A stretch of 33,051 nucleotides of DNA from Pseudomonadota bacterium (GTDB taxonomy: Bacteria > Pseudomonadota > Gammaproteobacteria > UBA5335). The notes under the pieces were generated by a model. It searched no databases. It was not told the DNA's origin and saw nothing but the letters and a program-made list of their open reading frames with translations. Numbering within the stretch: position 1 is the stretch's first letter; every line of letters begins with the position of its first letter. The position numbers and the translations under genes were made by a program. This document shows positions 15,741-29,316 of this stretch, one piece after another. The DNA is taken from assembly GCA_021767745.1 (NCBI GenBank), contig JAASSS010000007.1, positions 1 to 33,051 of the forward strand, given 5' to 3'.

Positions 15741-17180
15741 TCAGAGCTCGCGTACCTGCACGGTCGGGGTCTGCTCGGAGGCCCGGGCGAAGCCATCGGG
15801 ACCCAGTGCGCCCACCGTGGCCGGGAACCAGAGGATCGCCGACAGATCGATGTTCAGCTTGCCCTTGGGCAGCTCGTTCACGCGGGCGCCGAAGCGAGGC
15901 AGGGCCCCGGGGAAGTCCTCCACATCGAAGGTGACCTCCGGATCCGCCGCGTCGACGTAGAGCAGGTCCGCCTGCACCGGCCAGTCGGGCGGGATGTCGA
16001 CCTTCAGCATCACGTCCCAGCCGCGACCGCTCTCCAGCCACATCCAGGCCGCTTCCGGGATGTCGATGTTCATCTTCTGCTCGACGCTGCTGATCTTGCC
16101 GTCGACCTTGCCCATCTGCCCGGTCGGATTCACCGCCGCGGCGAAACGGCCGCCCTGCAGGTCGTGCATGTCCAGGCCGAGGTCGATGACCGGCCGGTTC
16201 AGCACCCGGGTCAGGATTTCGCCGCCCGGGATGTTCAGCCGCACCGGCAGAGAAATACCCTGGTCGTAGAGCATCATGTCGGTGCGGATGAAGAACACCG
16301 GGATGTTCGCCACCACCACGCGGATCTGCATCAGCAGTACGTCGCGGATCGGACCATGCTTGACGCCGAGCAGGCGCGCCTCGAGGTTCTCCACGCCGAC
16401 CGACAACCGCGGCCAGCGCGTCACCACTCCGGTGGACAGGTCCAGGATCAGCGCGTCCAGCACACGGTGATCCGGTGTCGGCCCGGCGTTGGCGCGGAAG
16501 GTGTCGAAGATCAGCAGGTTGTCCTGCGACTGCACGAAGTTGTAGAACGTGGACTCGAACTGGCGGCGGTTCTCGTCGTAGCGCACATAGCGGGCCGGAC
16601 TGCGGACCGGACCGCCGGTGACCACATACGCGTAGCGATCGCCCCGCTCGGTCGCCACCCGGATTTCCTGCACCAGTTTCCCACTGGGCGGCTGCTGGTC
16701 CGCCGGCAGGGTTTCGGTGCCGGCATCGCGCAGCATGAAGACGATCTCGTCCTCGGCGTCGAGCGTGCCGGCCCGGCCGGCGACGCCTGCGTCCGAGACG
16801 CCTTCGACATAGACCCAGCCATCCTCGTCCTTCTCGTCGATCTGGAACGGGATCGGCACCAGTTTGCCGGCGCGGACCGCCATCAGGCCGAGGTCCTCGA
16901 TCGGCGTGCCGAGCACGGCACTGGCCTTGTTGCCTTTCACGACCACCGGGTGCACCCAGGTGTAGGGATTCAGGCCGAGGTCGCCGACCAGCCGGTCCCA
17001 CTGCTCGGTCGTGAGCCGGCGCGGGATGTCGCGGTGGTGGGCGAGATAGTCGGGCTCCGACTCGATCGTGCGAAGCAGTTGCTGGTATTCGGCCTCGTCG
17101 ATCGAGCCGTAATCGGCCGCGAGTACAGGCGCTCCGAACAGGCACCAGCCCAGTATCAGGACGACGATCACATGGCGCAT
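15741..17180 (-). CDS. Exported protein of unrecognised family, paralog A
   Basis: This protein has 479 residues. The ATG at 17180 has a good GGAGG site, and it gives a clean signal peptide (MRHVIVVLILGWCLFGAPVLA, cleavage near 21/22). I do not recognise the family. Visible features are a short helical N-terminal domain (SIDEAEYQQLLRTIESEP), KLVPIPFQIDEKDEDGWVYVEG, an acidic DAEDEIVFMLRDAG, FRANAGPTPDHRVLD, RVVVANIPVF, YDQGISLPV, IPGGEILTRVLNRP, DLQGG, and a C-terminal half rich in beta strands and aromatics. It ends VQVREL. The upstream neighbour on the same strand (paralog B) matches it along its whole length. No membrane segment after the signal is seen, so a periplasmic or secreted location is inferred. 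It resembles no enzyme with an obvious active site. Confidence 0.85.
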   Translation of the reverse strand: MRHVIVVLILGWCLFGAPVLAADYGSIDEAEYQQLLRTIESEPDYLAHHRDIPRRLTTEQWDRLVGDLGLNPYTWVHPVVVKGNKASAVLGTPIEDLGLMAVRAGKLVPIPFQIDEKDEDGWVYVEGVSDAGVAGRAGTLDAEDEIVFMLRDAGTETLPADQQPPSGKLVQEIRVATERGDRYAYVVTGGPVRSPARYVRYDENRRQFESTFYNFVQSQDNLLIFDTFRANAGPTPDHRVLDALILDLSTGVVTRWPRLSVGVENLEARLLGVKHGPIRDVLLMQIRVVVANIPVFFIRTDMMLYDQGISLPVRLNIPGGEILTRVLNRPVIDLGLDMHDLQGGRFAAAVNPTGQMGKVDGKISSVEQKMNIDIPEAAWMWLESGRGWDVMLKVDIPPDWPVQADLLYVDAADPEVTFDVEDFPGALPRFGARVNELPKGKLNIDLSAILWFPATVGALGPDGFARASEQTPTVQVREL

Positions 17181-17282
17181 GCTGACCTCCTTGTCGGCAT
17201 CGTTGACGAGCGGCACTCCCTGGCCGCCCCGACTCCAGTGCTAGTACAAGGCGGCGGCGAGCGCCAGCCACCGGCATTGTGA

Positions 17283-17323
17283 CGGCAGCCGGGGCAGGCG
17301 GGACCCGCTCACCCCGGCTGCCG
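17283..17323 (-). terminator. 12-bp-stem hairpin between the two exported paralogs
   Basis: CGGCAGCCGGGG pairs perfectly with CCCCGGCTGCCG across a 17-base loop that itself contains GCGG/CCGC. It begins six bases after the paralog B stop and lies about 100 bases before the paralog A start. It lacks a T-tract. It could reduce read-through or protect the paralog B message, giving unequal amounts of the two proteins. Confidence 0.5.
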
Positions 17324-17328
17324 CCGAA

Positions 17329-18807
17329 TCAGCCGCCTGGCGCCGCCCGGACCTGCAGCGCCGGTGGATTGCGCACCTCCTGTGCGAAGCCCAGAGGGCC
17401 GCCGGCTCCCACCGTATCGGGAAACCAGAGCATGGCGTCGAGGGAAATATCGAGCTTGCCGACCGGGAAGCCGCGCGCATCGACGCCCACCCGCGGCGTC
17501 GCGCCGGGGAAGTTCTCCCAGTCCGTGGTGGCGCCCGGGTCGTCCTCGTAGCGCAGGTCGAGCTGCTCGGGCCAGTCCGGCGGCAGATCGAAGCGGGCCC
17601 ACAGGTCCCAGCCGCGCTGGCTGGCCAGCCACAGCCAGTTCTTCTCGTGCGAGATCGTCACGGTCTTCTCCAGCGCGCTGAGCTTGCCGTCGACCACGGC
17701 GTAACTGGCAGGATCGGCGCTGCCGGCCGCGTTCACGTGCCCGCCCTGGATGTCCTTGAAGTCCAGTGCGAGGTAGAAGCGCGGCTTGTTCAGGACGCGG
17801 GTGAGCACTTCGCCGCCGGGGATTCGGATCGACACCGGCAGCACGATGCCCTGATCGTAGACCGTGACCTCGCTCCAGATGTTGAACACCGGTATGTTGG
17901 CGACCACGATGCGCAGCTTCAGCAGCGTCAGCGCCCGGACCGGGCCATCCTTCACCCGCACCAGCTCGGCCTTGATGTTGTCGACGCTGTCGAACGAGAG
18001 CCGCGGCCAAGGCGAGATGACGCCGGTGGCCAGTTCGACGTAGATCGTGTCGAGCACGCGCGCATCCTGCGTCGGGCCGACATTCGCGCGGAAGTCCTTG
18101 AAGTCCAGGAAGTTCTGCGGCGAGACCGCGAACTGGTAGTAGGTGTTGCGCGACTGGCCGGTCGTGGCATCGAACGAGACGTAATCCGCCGTGCTGCGCC
18201 GGTCGTCGCCCTGCAGTAGATAGGCATAGCGCGTGCGGCCCTCGTGCGTGAATCGCAGCTCATGCAGGATCTGCCCGGCCGGCGCCCCGTGGTGCGCCGC
18301 ATCGTAGGCGTCCTCACCCGTGTCGCGGTACATGAAGACCAGCTCGTCCTGTGCGTCGAAGACGCCGGGGGTGCCGACGGGCGGCGCCTCGCTGGCCCCC
18401 TCGATATAGGCCCAGCCCTCGGTGTCGCGCTCGTCGATCTGGAAGGGGATCGGTACCAGTTCGCCGCCGCGCACGGCGGCAACCGACAGCGTATCGATTG
18501 CCTTGCCCGCGGCCGTCGGCAGGGTGTCGGCCTCGGCGATCACCGGATGCAGATAGCTGTAGTGGGTGAGTTCCAGCGCCTCGATCGCCTGCGCCAGCTG
18601 CGGCGGGGTCAGGTTCCTCAGTACCTGCGGATGATCGTGCAGGTAGGTCGGCTGGTCGCGATAGGCCTCGATGTGCCGGTTCAGTTCGGCGGCGGTGATA
18701 TCGCCGTAGCCGGCGCTGGCCGTGCCGGCCCATGCCAGGGCCAGCAGTCCGGCCGGCCGCAGCGCCTGCCAGCTGCCGCGGCGTAGCCTCGTGATCGTTC
18801 CATCCAT
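17329..18807 (-). CDS. Exported protein of unrecognised family, paralog B
   Basis: This protein has 492 residues, starting at ATG 18807 after AGGGAGA. The signal peptide has a basic n-region (RLRRG), a hydrophobic core (LLALAWAGTASA) and cleavage after Ala32, leaving GYGDI. The mature protein aligns with paralog A throughout: HYSYLHPVI, ELVPIPFQIDERDTEGWAYIEG, DAQDELVFMYRDTG, FRANVGPTQDARVLD, WPRLSFD, RIVVANIPVF, YDQGIVLPVSIRIPGGE, LTRVLNKP, DIQGG, and FPGATPRVG near the end. Tandem duplication is the simplest origin. The conserved acidic DxxDE(I/L)VFM site could bind a cation, but that is only a guess. It is transcribed away from the amidohydrolase at 18991 across a 183-base shared regulatory gap. 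Function unknown. Confidence 0.85.
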   Translation of the reverse strand: MDGTITRLRRGSWQALRPAGLLALAWAGTASAGYGDITAAELNRHIEAYRDQPTYLHDHPQVLRNLTPPQLAQAIEALELTHYSYLHPVIAEADTLPTAAGKAIDTLSVAAVRGGELVPIPFQIDERDTEGWAYIEGASEAPPVGTPGVFDAQDELVFMYRDTGEDAYDAAHHGAPAGQILHELRFTHEGRTRYAYLLQGDDRRSTADYVSFDATTGQSRNTYYQFAVSPQNFLDFKDFRANVGPTQDARVLDTIYVELATGVISPWPRLSFDSVDNIKAELVRVKDGPVRALTLLKLRIVVANIPVFNIWSEVTVYDQGIVLPVSIRIPGGEVLTRVLNKPRFYLALDFKDIQGGHVNAAGSADPASYAVVDGKLSALEKTVTISHEKNWLWLASQRGWDLWARFDLPPDWPEQLDLRYEDDPGATTDWENFPGATPRVGVDARGFPVGKLDISLDAMLWFPDTVGAGGPLGFAQEVRNPPALQVRAAPGG

Positions 18808-18990: not shown

Positions 18991-20997
18991 ATGGCCAAGC
19001 GAACGTCCGAGGCCGCGGGGACGGGTTGGGACCTGCTGATTCACGACGCGCTCGTCTACGATGGCAGCGGCCGGCTGCCGCGCCGGCTGGATGTGGCAGT
19101 GCGCGAGGGACGAGTCGCCGCGCTGGGCGAGGGGCTGGACCGCCATCAGGCGGCCCACACGCTCGATGGCGCCGGCCAGTGGCTGCTGCCCGGTCTGCTC
19201 GACATCCACACCCACTTCGATCTGGAGGTGGAGGTCGAGCCCGGGCTGCCGGAAGCCGTGCGCCACGGCACGACCACGGTGGTCATGAGCAATTGCAGCC
19301 TTGGCCTGGCCTATGGCCTGCTGCCCGACGAAGCTGGTGGGCGTGACGACAATGCCATCGTCAACTGCTTCGCCCGGGTGGAAAACATGCCGAAGTCGGT
19401 GCTCGCCGCTGCCCTCGGCGAACGGGTCGACTGGGACGAGCCCGGTGCCTATCTCCAGCATCTGGACACCTTGCCGTTGGGCGCCAACGTGGTGCCGATG
19501 ATCCCGCACAGCATGCTGCGAATCGCCGTGATGGGCATGGAGGCGGCGGTGCGCCGGGCGCCGACCGACGAGGAAGTCGCGCGGATGTGCGAATCGCTGG
19601 AGCGGGCGATGCAACGCGGCTACGTCGGTATGTCCACCGACGGGCTGCCGCTGCACTTCCTGGCGAACGATCCCTACCGGGAGGTGGCCATTCCCGCCCA
19701 GCACGCCAGCCGCGCCGAACTGGCCGCGCTGTGCGAGATCGTGCGCCGGCACGAGGGCATCGTGCAGTTCACGCCGAATGCAGAGAATCGCCTGGCGACG
19801 GCGCAGCTGCTGTTCATGAGCTGTGGGCGCCTGCATGGCAAGCCGCTGCGCATGACGGCCACCGCCGCCATGGACCTCAACAGTGCGCCACGTGCCTACA
19901 AGGCACTGCTTGGCCTGTCGAAGCTGATCAACAGCGATTTCATGCGCGGCCATTTCCGCTTTCAGGCGCTGTCGGCCCCGTTTGTCATGTACGGCGACGG
20001 TGCCACGGCGCCGGTGATGGAGGAAAAGCCGTCCTTCCGCCAGCTGGCGGCAATCGATCTGGACGATCGACAGGCTCGCCAGCAGTTGCTCAATGATCCG
20101 GCTTTCTGCGAGCAGTTCCGGCAGGACTGGATGGCTGGAAAATTCGGCTGGACGCTCGCGCATCTGCGCCGGCGGCTGCAGATCGAGCCGGAGCTGTTCG
20201 CGCGCAAGCTCGAAGAGATGACGATGGTCAGCTGCCCAGAGTCGCGGTGGAATGGCGAGAACCTGCAGTCACTCTACGAGCGCCTGCGCCAGTTCCAGCA
20301 TACCGGCGGCCGGGAGGGCGCGCGTGATGGCGCCGAGGCGGAAGCCTTCCGCCGCTTCCCGGATCCGGCCGACGAGGCCGACTTCCTGCTGCATCTGCTG
20401 CGCAGCTACGACCGGGAGTTCCGCTGGTCGGTGATCACGGCGAACCAGCGGCCGGAGGTGCTGAAGGAGCTGGTCTTCCACCCGCAGACACTGCCCGGGT
20501 TCAACGACAGCGGTGCCCATCTGACCAACATGGCATTCTTCGACGGCAATCTGCGCACGCTGCAGCTGGCGCAGCAGGACGGGTCGCCGACACTGATGGC
20601 CCGCGCCGTGCGCCGGCTCACGGCCGACGCGGCGGATCTGTTCGGCCTGGACGTGGGGCGCATCGAGATCGGCGCGCGCGCCGATCTGGTGATGATCGAC
20701 CCGCAGGCGCTGGCCAGCTACGATTCGGAGGCCTGCACCCGGCTGATCCATCGGGAGATCTTCGATCATCCGCAGATGGTCAACCGCTCGGACGGCGTGG
20801 TGCGCAGCGTGATCATCGGCGGGCAAATCGCCTGGGATGGCGAGGCATTCACCCCCGAGTTCGGCCAGCAGGCGATGGGCAGGCCCCTGACCCGCCGCGG
20901 CACCTCGACAGCGGCCGGCGGCGAGACCCCTGCCGGTGAGGCAGCCGCAGCCGATGCCGAGCACGCAGCGACGTTGCCGGCTGCCGCCTCCGCCTAG
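18991..20997 (+). CDS. Amidohydrolase of the N-acyl-D-amino-acid deacylase group
   Basis: Members of this metal-dependent amidohydrolase family remove acyl groups from N-acyl-D-amino acids. The ATG at 18991 follows GGGGGAAGGA. The 668 residues begin with a beta-sandwich (LLIHDALVYDGSGRLPRRLDVAV) and then the HxH metal motif DIHTHFD (His73, His75). Next comes VVMSNCS, with Cys102 matching the metal-bridging Cys of D-aminoacylase, and later GFNDSGAHL with Asp506 as probable catalytic acid. The C-terminal ADLVMIDP is typical. It is longer than classical D-aminoacylase (about 480): there are extra helical segments around 330-480, and a 40-residue Ala/Gly/Thr-rich low-complexity tail. No signal peptide is visible, so it is cytoplasmic. 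The substrate cannot be told from sequence. Confidence 0.82.
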   Translation: MAKRTSEAAGTGWDLLIHDALVYDGSGRLPRRLDVAVREGRVAALGEGLDRHQAAHTLDGAGQWLLPGLLDIHTHFDLEVEVEPGLPEAVRHGTTTVVMSNCSLGLAYGLLPDEAGGRDDNAIVNCFARVENMPKSVLAAALGERVDWDEPGAYLQHLDTLPLGANVVPMIPHSMLRIAVMGMEAAVRRAPTDEEVARMCESLERAMQRGYVGMSTDGLPLHFLANDPYREVAIPAQHASRAELAALCEIVRRHEGIVQFTPNAENRLATAQLLFMSCGRLHGKPLRMTATAAMDLNSAPRAYKALLGLSKLINSDFMRGHFRFQALSAPFVMYGDGATAPVMEEKPSFRQLAAIDLDDRQARQQLLNDPAFCEQFRQDWMAGKFGWTLAHLRRRLQIEPELFARKLEEMTMVSCPESRWNGENLQSLYERLRQFQHTGGREGARDGAEAEAFRRFPDPADEADFLLHLLRSYDREFRWSVITANQRPEVLKELVFHPQTLPGFNDSGAHLTNMAFFDGNLRTLQLAQQDGSPTLMARAVRRLTADAADLFGLDVGRIEIGARADLVMIDPQALASYDSEACTRLIHREIFDHPQMVNRSDGVVRSVIIGGQIAWDGEAFTPEFGQQAMGRPLTRRGTSTAAGGETPAGEAAAADAEHAATLPAAASA

Positions 20998-21186: not shown

Positions 21187-22440
21187 CTAGGCCAGCGCCG
21201 CCCCGGTCGGCGACACGCGATCTGCCGCCACGGCCATGCGCGCGGCCTGCGCCACCAGCGCCGGCTGTCCGCTGCGCAGGTTCGCCTCACGTGCCAGTGC
21301 CCGCTCTTCCGGGCTTGCGTACTGCTCGTCCCACTCGATCAGCTTCGGGTTCATCAGCCGGTGCCACAACGGCGGGATCACGGTGAAGCCCATCGTCTTC
21401 AGATAGCCGTGGGCGTAGGTCGGCGCTTCCGGCACGTGCTCGAGTGCCCAGAACGGCCGCAGCGGTTCCAGATGATGCTGTGAATGCCGGCCGATACCGT
21501 CCACGAACCAGTTGGTGAACCGGTTGTAGCAGTCCCACGAATGATGGGCGCGGATCTCCGAGTCCGGCACCCGCACGATGCCATAGTGCTGCCCGTACGT
21601 GCCGAGCTTGTAGGTGAAATGCGCGTTCAGCGCCGAGACCAGGAACCAGAACAGGCCGAGCAGGCCGCTCACCGCCGTGATCAGCACCATCAGCGTCAGC
21701 TCGGCGGCCCAACCGCGCAGCAGGCGGTTGCGCCAGTGCAGCGCCGGCAGGCCAAGCTTGGCGAGGCGGTCGCGTTCGATGGCCCAGGCGGTGGTGTAGT
21801 CCTGCGGCGTGGTGCGCAGTGAATAGCGGTAGATGTTTTCGCCGCGCAGGGCGGTCGAGGAGTCGACCGGCGTGCCGACGGTCAGGTGGTGACCGTGCGG
21901 ATGTTCGATCGCGTAGTAGGTGAACAGGCCGAACAGCGAGCAGGTGCGGGCGGCAAAGATCGAGAGCGGCTCCCAGGTGCGATGCGCCAGTTCGTGGCCG
22001 ATCGACACCGAGCCGATGCCGGTGATGGTCGAAAACAGCACCGCCGAGAGCAGGTAGGTCAGCACGCCGTCGTCGGCGTGCGCCGCCAGCATGTCGAAGC
22101 CGGTCGTCGCCTGTAGCAGGCCAGCCAGCCCCAGCAGGTCGCCGCCGCTGTGGCCGTGCGCCAGCGTCCAGACGAAACCGAGAAAGGCGAGCAGGGTCAC
22201 CGGCAGGAACGCCCACATCATCCAGACGAATACGCGCGGCTGCGTGAAGGGCTTGGTCTCGTAGTCGTCGCTGCTCATCCGCTCGGCGGCCGAGAGCGCG
22301 ATCAGCACGGTCAGCAGGGCGGCCCAGCCGCTGTCGGCGCCGATCCAGATCAGGTAGGTGGCGCCCAGCGCCAGCAGCAGCGGCAGCGCGTAGGCGCCAT
22401 AGCGCCAGACGCTCGCCGCGCCTTGGGTCAGTGTGGTCAT
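21187..22440 (-). CDS. AlkB-like membrane di-iron hydroxylase (alkane 1-monooxygenase family)
   Basis: Family members hydroxylate terminal methyl groups of alkanes or related compounds at a membrane-embedded di-iron centre, with electrons from rubredoxin. ATG 22440 has the strong site GGAGGAG; open frame further upstream is not needed. The 417 residues show transmembrane pairs at about 15-50, 72-95, 125-145 and 245-275. Histidine boxes: HELAH (149-153), EHPHGHH (179-185) followed by VGTPVDSS---RGENIYRYSLR, and RHSQHHLEPLRPF (318-330). The HYG motif is TYGQHYGI rather than NYxEHYGL. Those changes put it away from typical AlkB, so the substrate is uncertain. No rubredoxin gene is adjacent. It is convergent with the amidohydrolase and upstream of nothing on its strand. 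Confidence 0.85.
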   Translation of the reverse strand: MTTLTQGAASVWRYGAYALPLLLALGATYLIWIGADSGWAALLTVLIALSAAERMSSDDYETKPFTQPRVFVWMMWAFLPVTLLAFLGFVWTLAHGHSGGDLLGLAGLLQATTGFDMLAAHADDGVLTYLLSAVLFSTITGIGSVSIGHELAHRTWEPLSIFAARTCSLFGLFTYYAIEHPHGHHLTVGTPVDSSTALRGENIYRYSLRTTPQDYTTAWAIERDRLAKLGLPALHWRNRLLRGWAAELTLMVLITAVSGLLGLFWFLVSALNAHFTYKLGTYGQHYGIVRVPDSEIRAHHSWDCYNRFTNWFVDGIGRHSQHHLEPLRPFWALEHVPEAPTYAHGYLKTMGFTVIPPLWHRLMNPKLIEWDEQYASPEERALAREANLRSGQPALVAQAARMAVAADRVSPTGAALA

Positions 22441-22523
22441 CTCTCCTCCGGCCGCTGTGCCGCGGCTCATTGATATTTCTAATAGTTTTTTGGCTTCGCC
22501 GTCAGCCGGTGCCTGGCGGCCGG

Positions 22524-22539
22524 TTGAACGGTCAGTCAA
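22524..22539. promoter_or_regulatory. Possible operator upstream of the alkB-like gene
   Basis: TTGAACGGTCAGTCAA has TTGA/TCAA ends eight bases apart and a core (ACGGTCAGTC) similar in style to TetR-family sites. It lies 84 bases before the start codon, with an A/T-rich stretch (22468-22492) between. No regulator gene is adjacent, and no clear -35/-10 pair was found. Confidence 0.25.
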
Positions 22540-25331: not shown

Positions 25332-25646
25332 TCAGTCGATGGAGAGGACCGACTCGACGCCACTGACGCGCGCGATCTCGTGCATGCGGAAGGGCATGTT
25401 GACGAAACGGATGGAGCCGCCGTCCCGCCGCGCCAGCCGATACCACTCGATCAATAACGCCACGGCGGCCGAATCGCTCCGACCGACGCCCGCCAGATCC
25501 ACTGTCAGGGCGCGGGTGGCGGACAACCGGTCCGCCACCGCGTCTATAGCATCAGGAACGGTTTCGAACGTCAAATCGCCCGAAATACGCACAGTGTTGG
25601 CGCCATCGTGCACCACTTTGGGTGCTTCTGCCTCAGGAGGCGACAT
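25332..25646 (-). CDS. mlaB: STAS-domain protein MlaB
   Basis: MlaB binds the ATPase MlaF and stabilises the MlaFEDB phospholipid transporter at the inner membrane. This 104-residue protein is a single STAS domain: VRISGDLTFETVPDAI, a beta strand ALTVDLAGV, then GRSDSAAVALLIEWYRLA with the conserved phosphorylation-type Ser after Asp, and SIRFVNMP. The ATG overlaps the 3' end of mlaC by 14 bases. Gene order and domain make the assignment secure. Confidence 0.93.
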   Translation of the reverse strand: MSPPEAEAPKVVHDGANTVRISGDLTFETVPDAIDAVADRLSATRALTVDLAGVGRSDSAAVALLIEWYRLARRDGGSIRFVNMPFRMHEIARVSGVESVLSID

Positions 25647-26268
25647 CCTGCAGGGCCGCCGGCGGTTCGTGGTTCTTGAGGTTCGCGATCAGCGAGTCGA
25701 GGCCATCCTGCTCGATCTCGCGGGCGAAGGTATCGCGGTAGCTGGTGACCAGGCTCACACCCTCGACCACCACGTCGAATACCTTCCACTCGCCGGCATC
25801 GGTGCGATACAGCCGGTAGTTGACGGCGATCGGATCCTGGCCGCGCGGCACGACCTGGGTGCGCACCCGGGCATCACGCCGGCTCTCGTCGCGCCGGCTC
25901 GGCAGATAGCGGATCTCCTGGTCGTCGTAGGCCAACAGCGCATCGGCGTAGGTGCGCAGCAGCAGCCGCTGGAACTCGCGCATGAACCGCTGCCGCTGAG
26001 CCTCGTCCGCCGTGCGCCAGTACTTGCCGAGCACCAGCTGGGAGACGTACGGGAAGTCGACGTGCGGCAGGATCCCGTCGATCACCAGCGCGCGCAGCTT
26101 CTCGGGCTGCGACTTCAGCTCGGTGCGCCGCGCCTCGACGTCGGTCAGGACGTCCTCGACGATGGTCTCCACGAACGCCTCCGGCGACTGCGCCGGCATC
26201 TGTTGTGCCGGCAGGGCAGCGCTGGCTGCCAGCATCAGGAAAGCCAGTAGGGCTGTGATCATTCGCAT
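25633..26268 (-). CDS. mlaC: Periplasmic phospholipid-binding protein MlaC
   Basis: MlaC ferries phospholipids between the outer-membrane MlaA complex and inner-membrane MlaFEDB. The start is ATG 26268 (MRMITALL). This gives a signal peptide ending SAALPAQQ; an upstream in-frame start would add six residues. The 211-residue protein has the family pattern SPEAFVETIVEDVL, a segment with ILPHVDFPYVSQLVLGKYWR, FMREFQRLLLRTYADALLAY, and WKVFDVVVEGVSLVTSYRDTF. It lies 14 bases from mlaD. Confidence 0.95.
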   Translation of the reverse strand: MRMITALLAFLMLAASAALPAQQMPAQSPEAFVETIVEDVLTDVEARRTELKSQPEKLRALVIDGILPHVDFPYVSQLVLGKYWRTADEAQRQRFMREFQRLLLRTYADALLAYDDQEIRYLPSRRDESRRDARVRTQVVPRGQDPIAVNYRLYRTDAGEWKVFDVVVEGVSLVTSYRDTFAREIEQDGLDSLIANLKNHEPPAALQDVAS

Positions 26269-26282
26269 AGTCCGGTGCTCCC

Positions 26283-26747
26283 TCATTCCTCTCGCTGCAT
26301 GTTGGTCACGAACTGGCCGATCAGGTTCTCCAGGACCAGCGCGCCCTGGGTGAACGTGATTTCGTCACCGGGCTGCAGGTTGTCCAGCGAGCCACCCGGC
26401 ACGATGCCGATGTACTGCTCGCCGAGCAGTCCGGCGGTGAGGATCTTCGCGCTGCTGTCGGCCGGCAGCTCGTCGTAGCGCGTGTCGAGCGCCAGCGTGA
26501 CGACGGCCTCGAAGCTCTTCTCGTCCAGCGCGATCGACTCGACCCTGCCGATATCAACGCCCGCCATGGCCACCGGTGCACGTGTGGAGAGTCCGCCGAT
26601 GTTGGCGAAGCGGGCGGTCACCCGGTAGGTGTCGCCACCGCTGAGGCCGTTGGCGGTACTGACCTGCAGGGTCAGCAGGAACAGTGCCGCCAGCCCCAGG
26701 CAGACGAACAGGCCGACGACGAGTTCGAGCAGGCGTGTCTGCGCCAT
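26283..26747 (-). CDS. mlaD: MCE-domain protein MlaD
   Basis: MlaD forms a hexameric ring on the periplasmic face of the transporter and passes lipid to or from MlaC. This 154-residue protein has one N-terminal transmembrane helix (LLELVVGLFVCLGLAALFLL) and one MCE domain: YRVTARFANIGGLSTRAPVAMAGV, DIGRVESIAL, and LLGEQYIGI. A hydrophobic pore-helix-like segment follows (GALVLENLIGQFV). The length is near the usual size. It is four bases from mlaE. Confidence 0.95.
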   Translation of the reverse strand: MAQTRLLELVVGLFVCLGLAALFLLTLQVSTANGLSGGDTYRVTARFANIGGLSTRAPVAMAGVDIGRVESIALDEKSFEAVVTLALDTRYDELPADSSAKILTAGLLGEQYIGIVPGGSLDNLQPGDEITFTQGALVLENLIGQFVTNMQREE

Positions 26748-26751
26748 CTTT

Positions 26752-27534
26752 TCAGTCTCCGGAAAACATCAGGCCGGTCAGCACGAAGTCCAGTGCCAGC
26801 ACGGCGAGCGAGGAAATGACGACGGTCTGCGTGGTGGCCCGGCTGACACCTTCGGCCGTCGCCGTCGCCGTGTAGCCCTGGAAGACCGCGATCCAGCTGA
26901 TCAGCAGGCCGAAGACGATGCTCTTGATGATGCCGCTGAGCACGTCTTCGCGAAAGCTCGCGGCCGATTCGATCTGCCCCCAGTAGCTGCCGGCGTCCAC
27001 GCCGAGCAGCTGCACGCCGATCACGTAGCCGCCGAAGATGCCCAGCGTGGTGAAGATCGCCACCAGCAGCGGCAGCGAGATCAGCCCGGCGAGGAAGCGC
27101 GGGCCGACCACCCGGTGGATGGGATCGACCGCCATCATCTCCATTGCCGAGAGCTGGTCGGTGGCCTTCATCAGGCCGATCTCCGCCGCGACTGCAGAGC
27201 CAGAGCGGCCGGCGAACAGCAGCGCCGCCACCACCGGGCCGAGCTCACGCATCAGCGAGAGCGCCACGATCACGCCGAGCGATTCCTCGGCGCCGAAGCG
27301 CACCAGGTTGTTGTAGCCCTGCAGCGCCAGCACCATGCCGACGAACAGCCCGGAGATCATGATGATCACCAGCGAGAGCACGCCGACCAGATAGACCTGC
27401 CGCACCACCAGCCCGGGGCGCAGGGCCACCAGCGGCAGGCTGCGCAGCACGCGCAGCAGGAAGATCGTGGCGCTGCCGATGCCCGCCAGCAGGCCGGCGA
27501 GCACCCCATGTTGCAGGCCGATCGGCAGCTTCAT
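26752..27534 (-). CDS. mlaE: Phospholipid ABC transporter permease MlaE
   Basis: MlaE is the membrane permease of the Mla system. The 260 residues include several long hydrophobic helices and the MlaE core: VLSLVIIMISGLFVGMVLALQGYNNL, SLMRELGPVVAALLFAGRSG, ATDQLSAMEMMAVDPI, and RFLAGLISLPLLVAIF. The E-L-GP-----L-AGR-G motif is diagnostic. ATG 27534 overlaps the mlaF stop (ATGA). Confidence 0.96.
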   Translation of the reverse strand: MKLPIGLQHGVLAGLLAGIGSATIFLLRVLRSLPLVALRPGLVVRQVYLVGVLSLVIIMISGLFVGMVLALQGYNNLVRFGAEESLGVIVALSLMRELGPVVAALLFAGRSGSAVAAEIGLMKATDQLSAMEMMAVDPIHRVVGPRFLAGLISLPLLVAIFTTLGIFGGYVIGVQLLGVDAGSYWGQIESAASFREDVLSGIIKSIVFGLLISWIAVFQGYTATATAEGVSRATTQTVVISSLAVLALDFVLTGLMFSGD

Positions 27535-28340
27535 CGGCGCTCTCCGAGCAGATCCTCGGCGTAGGTCGAGGCCGGATAATGGAACTGTACTGGCCCGTCG
27601 GGCTCGCCTCGCATGAACTGGCGCACCCAGGGCGAGTCGTCCGCCCGCAGCGCCTCGGGCGTGCCGTGCGCCATCACCTTGCCCTGGGAGATCAGGTAGC
27701 AGTAGTCGGCCACCTGCAGCACGTCCTCCAGATCGTGCGTCACCACGATCGAGGTGAGGCCGAGCGCATCGTTCACCAGCCGGACCAGCCGCACGATCAT
27801 GCCCTTGGAGATCGGATCCAGGCCCACGAACGGCTCGTCGTACATGATCATTGCCGGATCGAGCGCCAGCGCCCTGGCCAGTGCCACCCGGCGGGCCATG
27901 CCGCCGGAGAGTTCGTCGGGCATCAGCGCGCGGGCGCCGCGCAGCCCGACCAGCTCGAGCTTCATCAGCACGAGGTGGCGAATCAGCGACTCGGGCAGAT
28001 CCGTGTGCTCGCGCAGCGGGAAGGCGATGTTCTCGAACACGTTGTAGTCGGTCAGCAGCGCGCCGCTCTGGAACAGCATGCCCATCTGCCGGCGCAGCGC
28101 GTACAGCGCCTTGCGCCGCAGCTGCGGCACTTCCTGGCCGTCTACCCGCACGCTGCCCGAGGCCGGCCTCAGCTGGCCGCTGATCAGTCGCAGCAGTGTG
28201 GTCTTGCCCGTGCCGCTGGGGCCGAGGAAGGCGGTGACGCTGCCGGCCGCGACGTTCAGGTCGATCCCGTCGAAGATCGGCCGGTCGCCGCGCAGGAAGC
28301 GCACGCGGGAGAGTTCGACGAGGTTGTCGTGCTGCGTCAT
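27531..28340 (-). CDS. mlaF: Phospholipid ABC transporter ATPase MlaF
   Basis: MlaF is the energy-coupling ATPase of the Mla transporter, which keeps phospholipid out of the outer leaflet. The ATG at 28340 gives 269 residues. The frame is open further, but the N-terminal family start (ELSRVRFLRGDRPIFDGIDL) lies just inside. Walker A is GPSGTGKTT at 40-48. The ABC signature is LSGGMARRVALARAL at about 144-158. Walker B is MIMYDEPFVGLD at about 164-175, and VVTHD is the switch. A perfect TATAAT lies 43 bases upstream, just past the argF stop. Confidence 0.96.
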   Translation of the reverse strand: MTQHDNLVELSRVRFLRGDRPIFDGIDLNVAAGSVTAFLGPSGTGKTTLLRLISGQLRPASGSVRVDGQEVPQLRRKALYALRRQMGMLFQSGALLTDYNVFENIAFPLREHTDLPESLIRHLVLMKLELVGLRGARALMPDELSGGMARRVALARALALDPAMIMYDEPFVGLDPISKGMIVRLVRLVNDALGLTSIVVTHDLEDVLQVADYCYLISQGKVMAHGTPEALRADDSPWVRQFMRGEPDGPVQFHYPASTYAEDLLGERR

Positions 28341-28382
28341 GTCGGCCCGGAAGCTGCGGGAAGTCGGCCCAAAAAGGTCCTG

Positions 28383-28388
28383 ATTATA
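28383..28388 (-). promoter_or_regulatory. Candidate -10 box of the mla operon
   Basis: A perfect TATAAT on the minus strand lies in the 73-base argF-mlaF gap, 43 bases from the mlaF start. The -35 region at 15-18 bases distance is GC-rich and poor, so an activator or extended contacts may be needed. It suggests the mla genes start their own transcript. Confidence 0.45.
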
Positions 28389-28413
28389 GGGTGCCGGCGC
28401 GGCATCGCCCGGC

Positions 28414-29316
28414 TCAGGCGCCGAGCAGGGTCGCGAGCAGCGCCTTCTGGGCATGGAGGCGGTTCTCGGCCTCGTCCCAGACCACGCTCTGCGGGCCGTC
28501 GATGACCTCGGCGCTCACCTCCTCGCCGCGATGGGCGGGCAGGCAGTGCATGAACAGCGCATCCCCGGCGGCCCGCCGCATCCGCGCGGCGTTCACCTGA
28601 TAGTCGGCGAGATCGGCCAGCCGGCGCCCGGCGTCGGCTTCCTGCCCCATGCTAGCCCACACGTCGGTGACCACCAGGTCCGCGCCGTGGACGGCCTCGT
28701 CCGGATCGTCGGTCAGCGTCAGCTCGGCCTCGGCCAGCCCGTCCAGCGGCGGCGCATAGCCCGCTGGCGTCGCGACCCGCAGGGCGAAGCCGAAGCGGGC
28801 CGCGGCGTTGACGAACGAGCGGCAGACGTTGTTGCCATCGCCGAGCCACGCCACCGTTCTGCCGTGAATGCTGCCGCGGTGTTCCTGATAGGTCATCACG
28901 TCCGCCAGCAGCTGGCAGGGGTGCAGCAGGTCGGTCAGCCCGTTGATCACCGGCACGCGCGAGTGGGCGGCGAAGTTCTCGACCATCGCGTGGGCATCGG
29001 CGCGGATCATGACGATATCCACCATCCGCGACAGCACCCGCGCGGTGTCTTCCACGGGCTCGCCGCGGCCGAGCTGGGTGTCGCGCGGCGACAGGAACAG
29101 CGCCTGCCCGCCGAGCTGGGCCATGCCCGCCTCGAACGAGACCCGCGTGCGCGTCGAGGCCTTCTCGAACACCATCGCCAGCGTCCGCCGGGCCAGCAGC
29201 GGCTGGGCGGTGCCGGCGCGGTGGGTGGCCTTCATGGCCTGGGCGCGATCGAGCAGCGCGGTGAGCTCCTCGCCGCTGAAGTCCAGCAGACTGAGGAAGT
29301 GTCGTGGCGCGCTCAT
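28414..29316 (-). CDS. argF: Ornithine carbamoyltransferase
   Basis: It joins carbamoyl phosphate and ornithine into citrulline in arginine synthesis. The 300-residue protein has the carbamoyl-phosphate site STRTR at about 54-58, HPCQ at 132-135 and the ornithine-site motif [13 protein letters not shown] near residue 255. ATG 29316 overlaps the argD stop (ATGA), so translation of the two is coupled. At 300 residues it is a compact, typical bacterial form. Confidence 0.97.

Follow-up and report, generated by a model that had tools for sequence, protein, structure and literature searches.

This locus raises the question of what two large, similar exported proteins encoded side by side are doing, and whether they do it as a pair. 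The window, the whole stretch of 33,051 nucleotides analysed here, comes from a gammaproteobacterium of the UBA5335 lineage. The genes concerned are listed below.

15741..17180, minus strand: P0001, exported supersandwich-family protein, "B" type, 479 residues (open reading frame; 46% identical to P0002)
17329..18807, minus strand: P0002, exported supersandwich-family protein, "A" type, 492 residues (open reading frame)
18991..20997, plus strand: amidohydrolase (Pfam PF07969/PF01979), divergent neighbour of P0002
21187..22539, minus strand: AlkB-like alkane 1-monooxygenase (FA_desaturase, PF00487), 2.4 kb from the pair

The genes for P0001 and P0002, both on the minus strand, are separated by 148 bp, and scans of the pair region for promoters and terminators found nothing. 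BLASTP aligns 474 residues of the two proteins, of which 46% are identical and 62% positive (E = 4e-143), a resemblance well above chance, and both contain the blocks LVPIPFQIDE, DAxDE(I/L)VFM, FRAN.GPT.D.RVLD, IPGGE.LTRVLN and FPGA.PR.G. Each begins with an N-terminal signal sequence of the ordinary kind (APVLA-A and GTASA-G, judged by eye). Since these signals are ordinary and the mature parts contain no lipobox and no cysteine, neither protein resembles a lipoprotein. Both carry export-type leaders and are probably soluble proteins exported by Sec.

Searches of P0001 and P0002 against Pfam and NCBIfam, and of P0001 against PDB sequences, gave no significant match, and a Pfam scan of 22 family members and a comparison of an 85-member family profile with the PDB likewise returned nothing significant. 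AlphaFold models were obtained for P0001 with 85 relatives (pLDDT 90.5, pTM 0.90) and for P0002 with 22 relatives (pLDDT 82, pTM 0.83), and the predicted architecture of P0001 is a helical N-terminal segment followed by a long run of beta strands. Foldseek matched the model to LacZ, a GH38 mannosidase, a PL26 lyase and GalM in the PDB (E 1e-7 to 1e-5, probability 1.00). The TM-score on the whole query was at most 0.46, which indicates a resemblance of fold only and not membership, and this search found no solved structure matching the family model along its full length. The fold predicted is that of a galactose-mutarotase-like beta-supersandwich, preceded by a helical N-terminal segment. Column identity averages 25% in an alignment of 85 homologs, in which Q113, D115, G135, D144, E172, Y185, Y198, R279 and G431 (P0001 numbering) are invariant. 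The charged or polar residues Q113, D115, D144, E172 and R279 would fit a lipid carrier, but equally a catalytic site or one for sugars.

DUF4861 (PF16153) is like the family in a short motif (xQ-ID-D...D-L-F), and one of the 22 scanned members matched it weakly in Pfam (E 0.053, below the curated cut-off). Kinship with DUF4861 is not supported, as comparisons of the family with four DUF4861 proteins found nothing by HMM search or by profile-profile alignment (hhalign probability 0.3%); a search of this genome for DUF4861 also gave no match. The proteins belong to an undescribed exported family, a new family of known fold. In this respect the original prediction, made from the letters alone, held up well: the open reading frames and BLASTP confirm its two adjacent same-strand paralogs of 479 and 492 residues that match over their whole length, the Pfam, NCBIfam and PDB sequence searches agree with its reading of an unrecognised exported family, and the models bear out the richness in beta segments that it had noted. 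The DxxDE block that it had called conserved is indeed kept across the family, with D144 invariant in the 85 homologs. It had also proposed structural and profile searches; of these, Foldseek brought a likeness of fold to supersandwich proteins, with no sequence homology to a known family.

Relatives of the two genes bear on whether the pair is a unit. The assembly (1.9 Mb, 82% complete) holds a third, distant family copy on another contig, and five genomes of the same taxonomic family (G001-G005) have 4-7 matching stretches each, fragments included. P0001 has orthologs in G001, G002, G004 and G005 (57-64% identity), and P0002 in G001, G003, G004 and G005 (60-65%), with a frame-disrupted copy in G002. 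There the A-type gene is broken across several reading frames (L026:8207-9665) and is either a pseudogene or the product of an assembly error. In the tree, P0002 and its orthologs form the A type (support 100/100), P0001 and its orthologs form the B type (97/88), and a C type is sister to B, placing P0001 with the C type and not with P0002. The C type, the closest paralog of P0001, was not found in this 82% complete assembly. Because the A and B types are separate in the tree, the pair diverged before the split of their taxonomic family, and P0001 and P0002 are ancient paralogs; a recent tandem duplication as the origin of the pair is rejected by the tree.

The A, B and C types lie on separate contigs in G001-G005, and five tandem pairs were found among ~90 further loci (L066, L085, L088, L096 and L119), most homologs being single. 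The tandem pair is not the functional unit; its arrangement is incidental, and the result of interest is the family, so that the earlier interpretation is supported in part. The idea that two kept copies imply two ligands or a heteromer does not fit orthologs on separate contigs or the grouping of P0001 with the C type, and the low number of tandem pairs does not support an obligate heteromer. Homologs are usually single, and they are only half unlinked from the neighbours seen here, because the P0002 type retains the divergent amidohydrolase in several relatives.

The family is confined to few gammaproteobacteria and is concentrated in alkane- and lipid-degrading ones (Alcanivorax, HdN1 and oil-associated MAGs). 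Carriers numbered 7 of 369 genomes in the class survey. A phylum-wide sample of 299 genomes gave a single carrier apart from this genome, and that carrier is of the same class. When 84,980 species genomes were scanned, 222 related loci were confirmed. The 80 best are gammaproteobacterial or carry only the label Proteobacteria; Alcanivorax, HdN1 and MAGs predominate among them, and the names of several of the MAGs mention oil or crude. A published account treats strain HdN1 as an alkane degrader (PMC3653055). Genomes carry between 1 and 13 copies (27 genomes of the 84,980-species scan), and the viral contigs and plasmids searched contained no relatives.

The main signal, which the original prediction missed, is the link to alkane degradation. 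The AlkB-like protein of the window matches the solved alkane 1-monooxygenases 8f6t and 8sbb (E about 1e-31), and its gene (21187-22539) served as the query for a survey of AlkB. With shared ancestry only partly corrected and lineages non-independent in all these tests, AlkB was present in 24 of 27 carriers from the genome scan, a non-random sample, compared to 36 of 362 non-carriers from the class sample (Fisher p 7e-19); in the class survey alone it was present in 5 of 7 carriers against 36 of 362 non-carriers (p 2e-4), and in 3 of 5 carriers when the window's own taxonomic family was collapsed to one lineage (p 0.01). When only strong matches (at least 200 bits) were counted, AlkB occurred in 4 of 7 carriers and 2 of 362 non-carriers (p 7e-7), and copy numbers of the family and of AlkB were correlated across genomes (Spearman 0.56, p 0.003). 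The family is thus associated with alkane oxidation genes. Carriers without AlkB are G393, G398, G399, G070 and G088. The window's own assembly contains at least four AlkB-like genes (contigs C103, C145, C14 and C166).

The neighbourhoods are varied, and we regard them as supportive and not decisive. The divergent amidohydrolase accompanies an A-type gene in four relatives as well (L007/L044, L026, L042 and L043), at 59-62% identity where measured; the same amidohydrolase adjoins two tandem alkB genes in G001 (L158). Elsewhere AlkB lies 0.5 kb downstream of a family gene on the same strand (L122), and family genes adjoin a P450 (L137, L150), a flavin monooxygenase (FMO; L053, L072), acyl-CoA dehydrogenases (L132, L119) or a GMC oxidoreductase (L147), while FadL is two genes away in L135. 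Other copies stand beside ABC transporter permease or molybdopterin oxidoreductase genes, and no constant partner gene was found across the loci examined. When near and far genes were compared without selection, there was a mild excess of lipid-type genes near the family; in this Pfam tally, where counts are low, the near families were hydrolases, CoA-transferase, AMP-binding, SDR, P450, acyl-CoA dehydrogenase and T2SS. A near/far count with hand-picked queries gave odds of 4.2 (p 3e-5), but it is circular, its queries having been chosen from those very neighbours; it also includes some duplicate loci and is not used as proof. An exported START/polyketide-cyclase lipid-transport protein is encoded directly upstream of family genes in L083, L085, L088 and L096, and in the last three it stands before a tandem pair. 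In the window itself, genes at 25633-28454, ~7 kb from the pair, are, as read by sequence, presumably mlaC, D, E and F of an Mla-type cluster for lipid transport, and a DUF4397 protein with two matched repeats lies at the window edge (18-1268).

One branch of the family is linked to type II secretion. In five Alcanivoracaceae genomes (L121, L142, L144, L146 and L148) a family copy stands at the end of the T2SS operon, behind gspL and gspM, and overlaps gspM or lies at most 2 nt from it; gspL and gspM were called by family match in L142, whereas in the other four the basis was similar sequence and gene order. GspL was present in all nine carriers tested, this genome included, and the T2SS is common in the class. 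GspN is encoded elsewhere in 4 of the 5 Alcanivoracaceae genomes searched, so the family copy is no simple substitute for it, and we rejected replacement of GspN as its role.

The explanation that we favour, tentatively and with a little less than even confidence, is that the family acts outside the inner membrane in the binding of alkanes or their long-chain products and in their hand-over to membrane oxidation. P0001 and P0002, exported by Sec as soluble proteins, would work in the periplasm or, by type II secretion, at the cell surface. There they may bind alkanes or their long-chain oxidised products and pass them on for membrane-bound oxidation by AlkB, P450, FMO and alcohol dehydrogenases. 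Different copies might serve different substrates or conditions, which would account for the 1-13 copies per genome. We infer binding and hand-over from the distribution, the export signals and the neighbours. Points against this explanation are the lack of a constant partner, the merely mild excess of lipid-type genes in the unselected comparison, the carriers without AlkB, the non-independence of the lineages, the many charged or polar residues among the invariant ones and the fact that the nearest structural matches are carbohydrate-active proteins.

This last point leads to a serious rival, which we consider fairly unlikely: the family could be carbohydrate-active or carbohydrate-binding exported proteins that act on glycolipid, exopolysaccharide or biosurfactant made by the cell itself, materials that hydrocarbon degraders need for emulsification and biofilm, so that the alkane link would be indirect. 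It has to be taken seriously because of the fold, with its Foldseek matches to LacZ, GH38 mannosidase, PL26 lyase and GalM supersandwich proteins, and because of the invariant polar residues; the weak DUF4861 match of one member points the same way. However, the matches do not exceed a whole-query TM-score of 0.46, the profile comparison with four DUF4861 proteins fails, and glycan genes are not prominent among the near-neighbour families. The operon position in Alcanivoracaceae and the presence of GspL in every carrier tested suggest instead a cargo or accessory protein of the T2SS, folded in the periplasm and secreted to the surface, where it would act between oil and water as an adhesin, an emulsifier or an alkane-capture protein. 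A T2SS-secreted protein essential for growth on alkanes in Marinobacter has been reported as unidentified (PMC5989066), and the family would fit this factor. We judge this reading unlikely, as the linkage is found in only one distant subfamily and does not extend to P0001 and P0002, GspN is present elsewhere in most of the Alcanivoracaceae genomes searched, and a T2SS is widespread in the class. The diverse neighbours, some of them ABC transporter permease or molybdopterin oxidoreductase genes, and the carriers without AlkB could also be explained if these were general envelope or lipid-homeostasis proteins, concerned with storage lipid, wax ester or membrane upkeep, that do not act on alkanes and are merely frequent in marine lipid specialists. 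This is very unlikely in view of the strong co-occurrence with AlkB and the correlation of copy numbers.

A role in alkane binding and hand-over would bear on a gap in the understanding of hydrocarbon degradation. How nearly insoluble alkanes pass through the periplasm to inner-membrane hydroxylases is poorly understood, and models of this passage rest on passive desorption and diffusion (PMC5989066). The near-restriction of the family to oil- and alkane-degrading marine bacteria, with up to 13 copies, recommends it as a candidate for some part of oil uptake or processing that is still missing. In the boldest form of this idea, which we regard as doubtful, the family would supply a soluble step still missing from the picture of how marine hydrocarbon degraders assimilate alkanes: a dedicated set of repeatedly duplicated supersandwich proteins would capture alkanes or their oxidation products, in the periplasm or on the cell surface, and deliver them to AlkB, P450 or FMO, with one branch wired into the T2SS operon. 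An unannotated exported family that tracks alkane hydroxylases and reaches 13 copies per genome offers concrete genes to test in culturable Alcanivorax, and its recognition would aid the annotation of oil-spill metagenomes.

The family can be compared with several known systems. With the galactose-mutarotase-like domains (GalM, domain 5 of LacZ, the C-terminal domain of GH38 and PL26 lyase) it has in common a large antiparallel beta-supersandwich, predicted in its case, but it differs from them in having no detectable sequence similarity, no attached catalytic barrel and an extra N-terminal helical segment. GspN (PF01203) is the final gene of some T2SS operons, and only the Alcanivoracaceae family members share its position after gspM; none of the scanned family members has a Pfam match to PF01203. 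A further comparison is with the alkane uptake proteins AupA and AupB of Marinobacter (PMC5989066). AupA is an outer-membrane protein of the FadL type, and AupB is recovered with the inner membrane on fractionation (PMC5989066); the genes of the family form no FadL operon in the loci examined and come nearest to FadL in L135, two genes off. Like the family, AupA and AupB are envelope proteins of marine alkane degraders that occur in multiple copies in Alcanivorax, and one of the two partners was previously of unknown function (PMC5989066).
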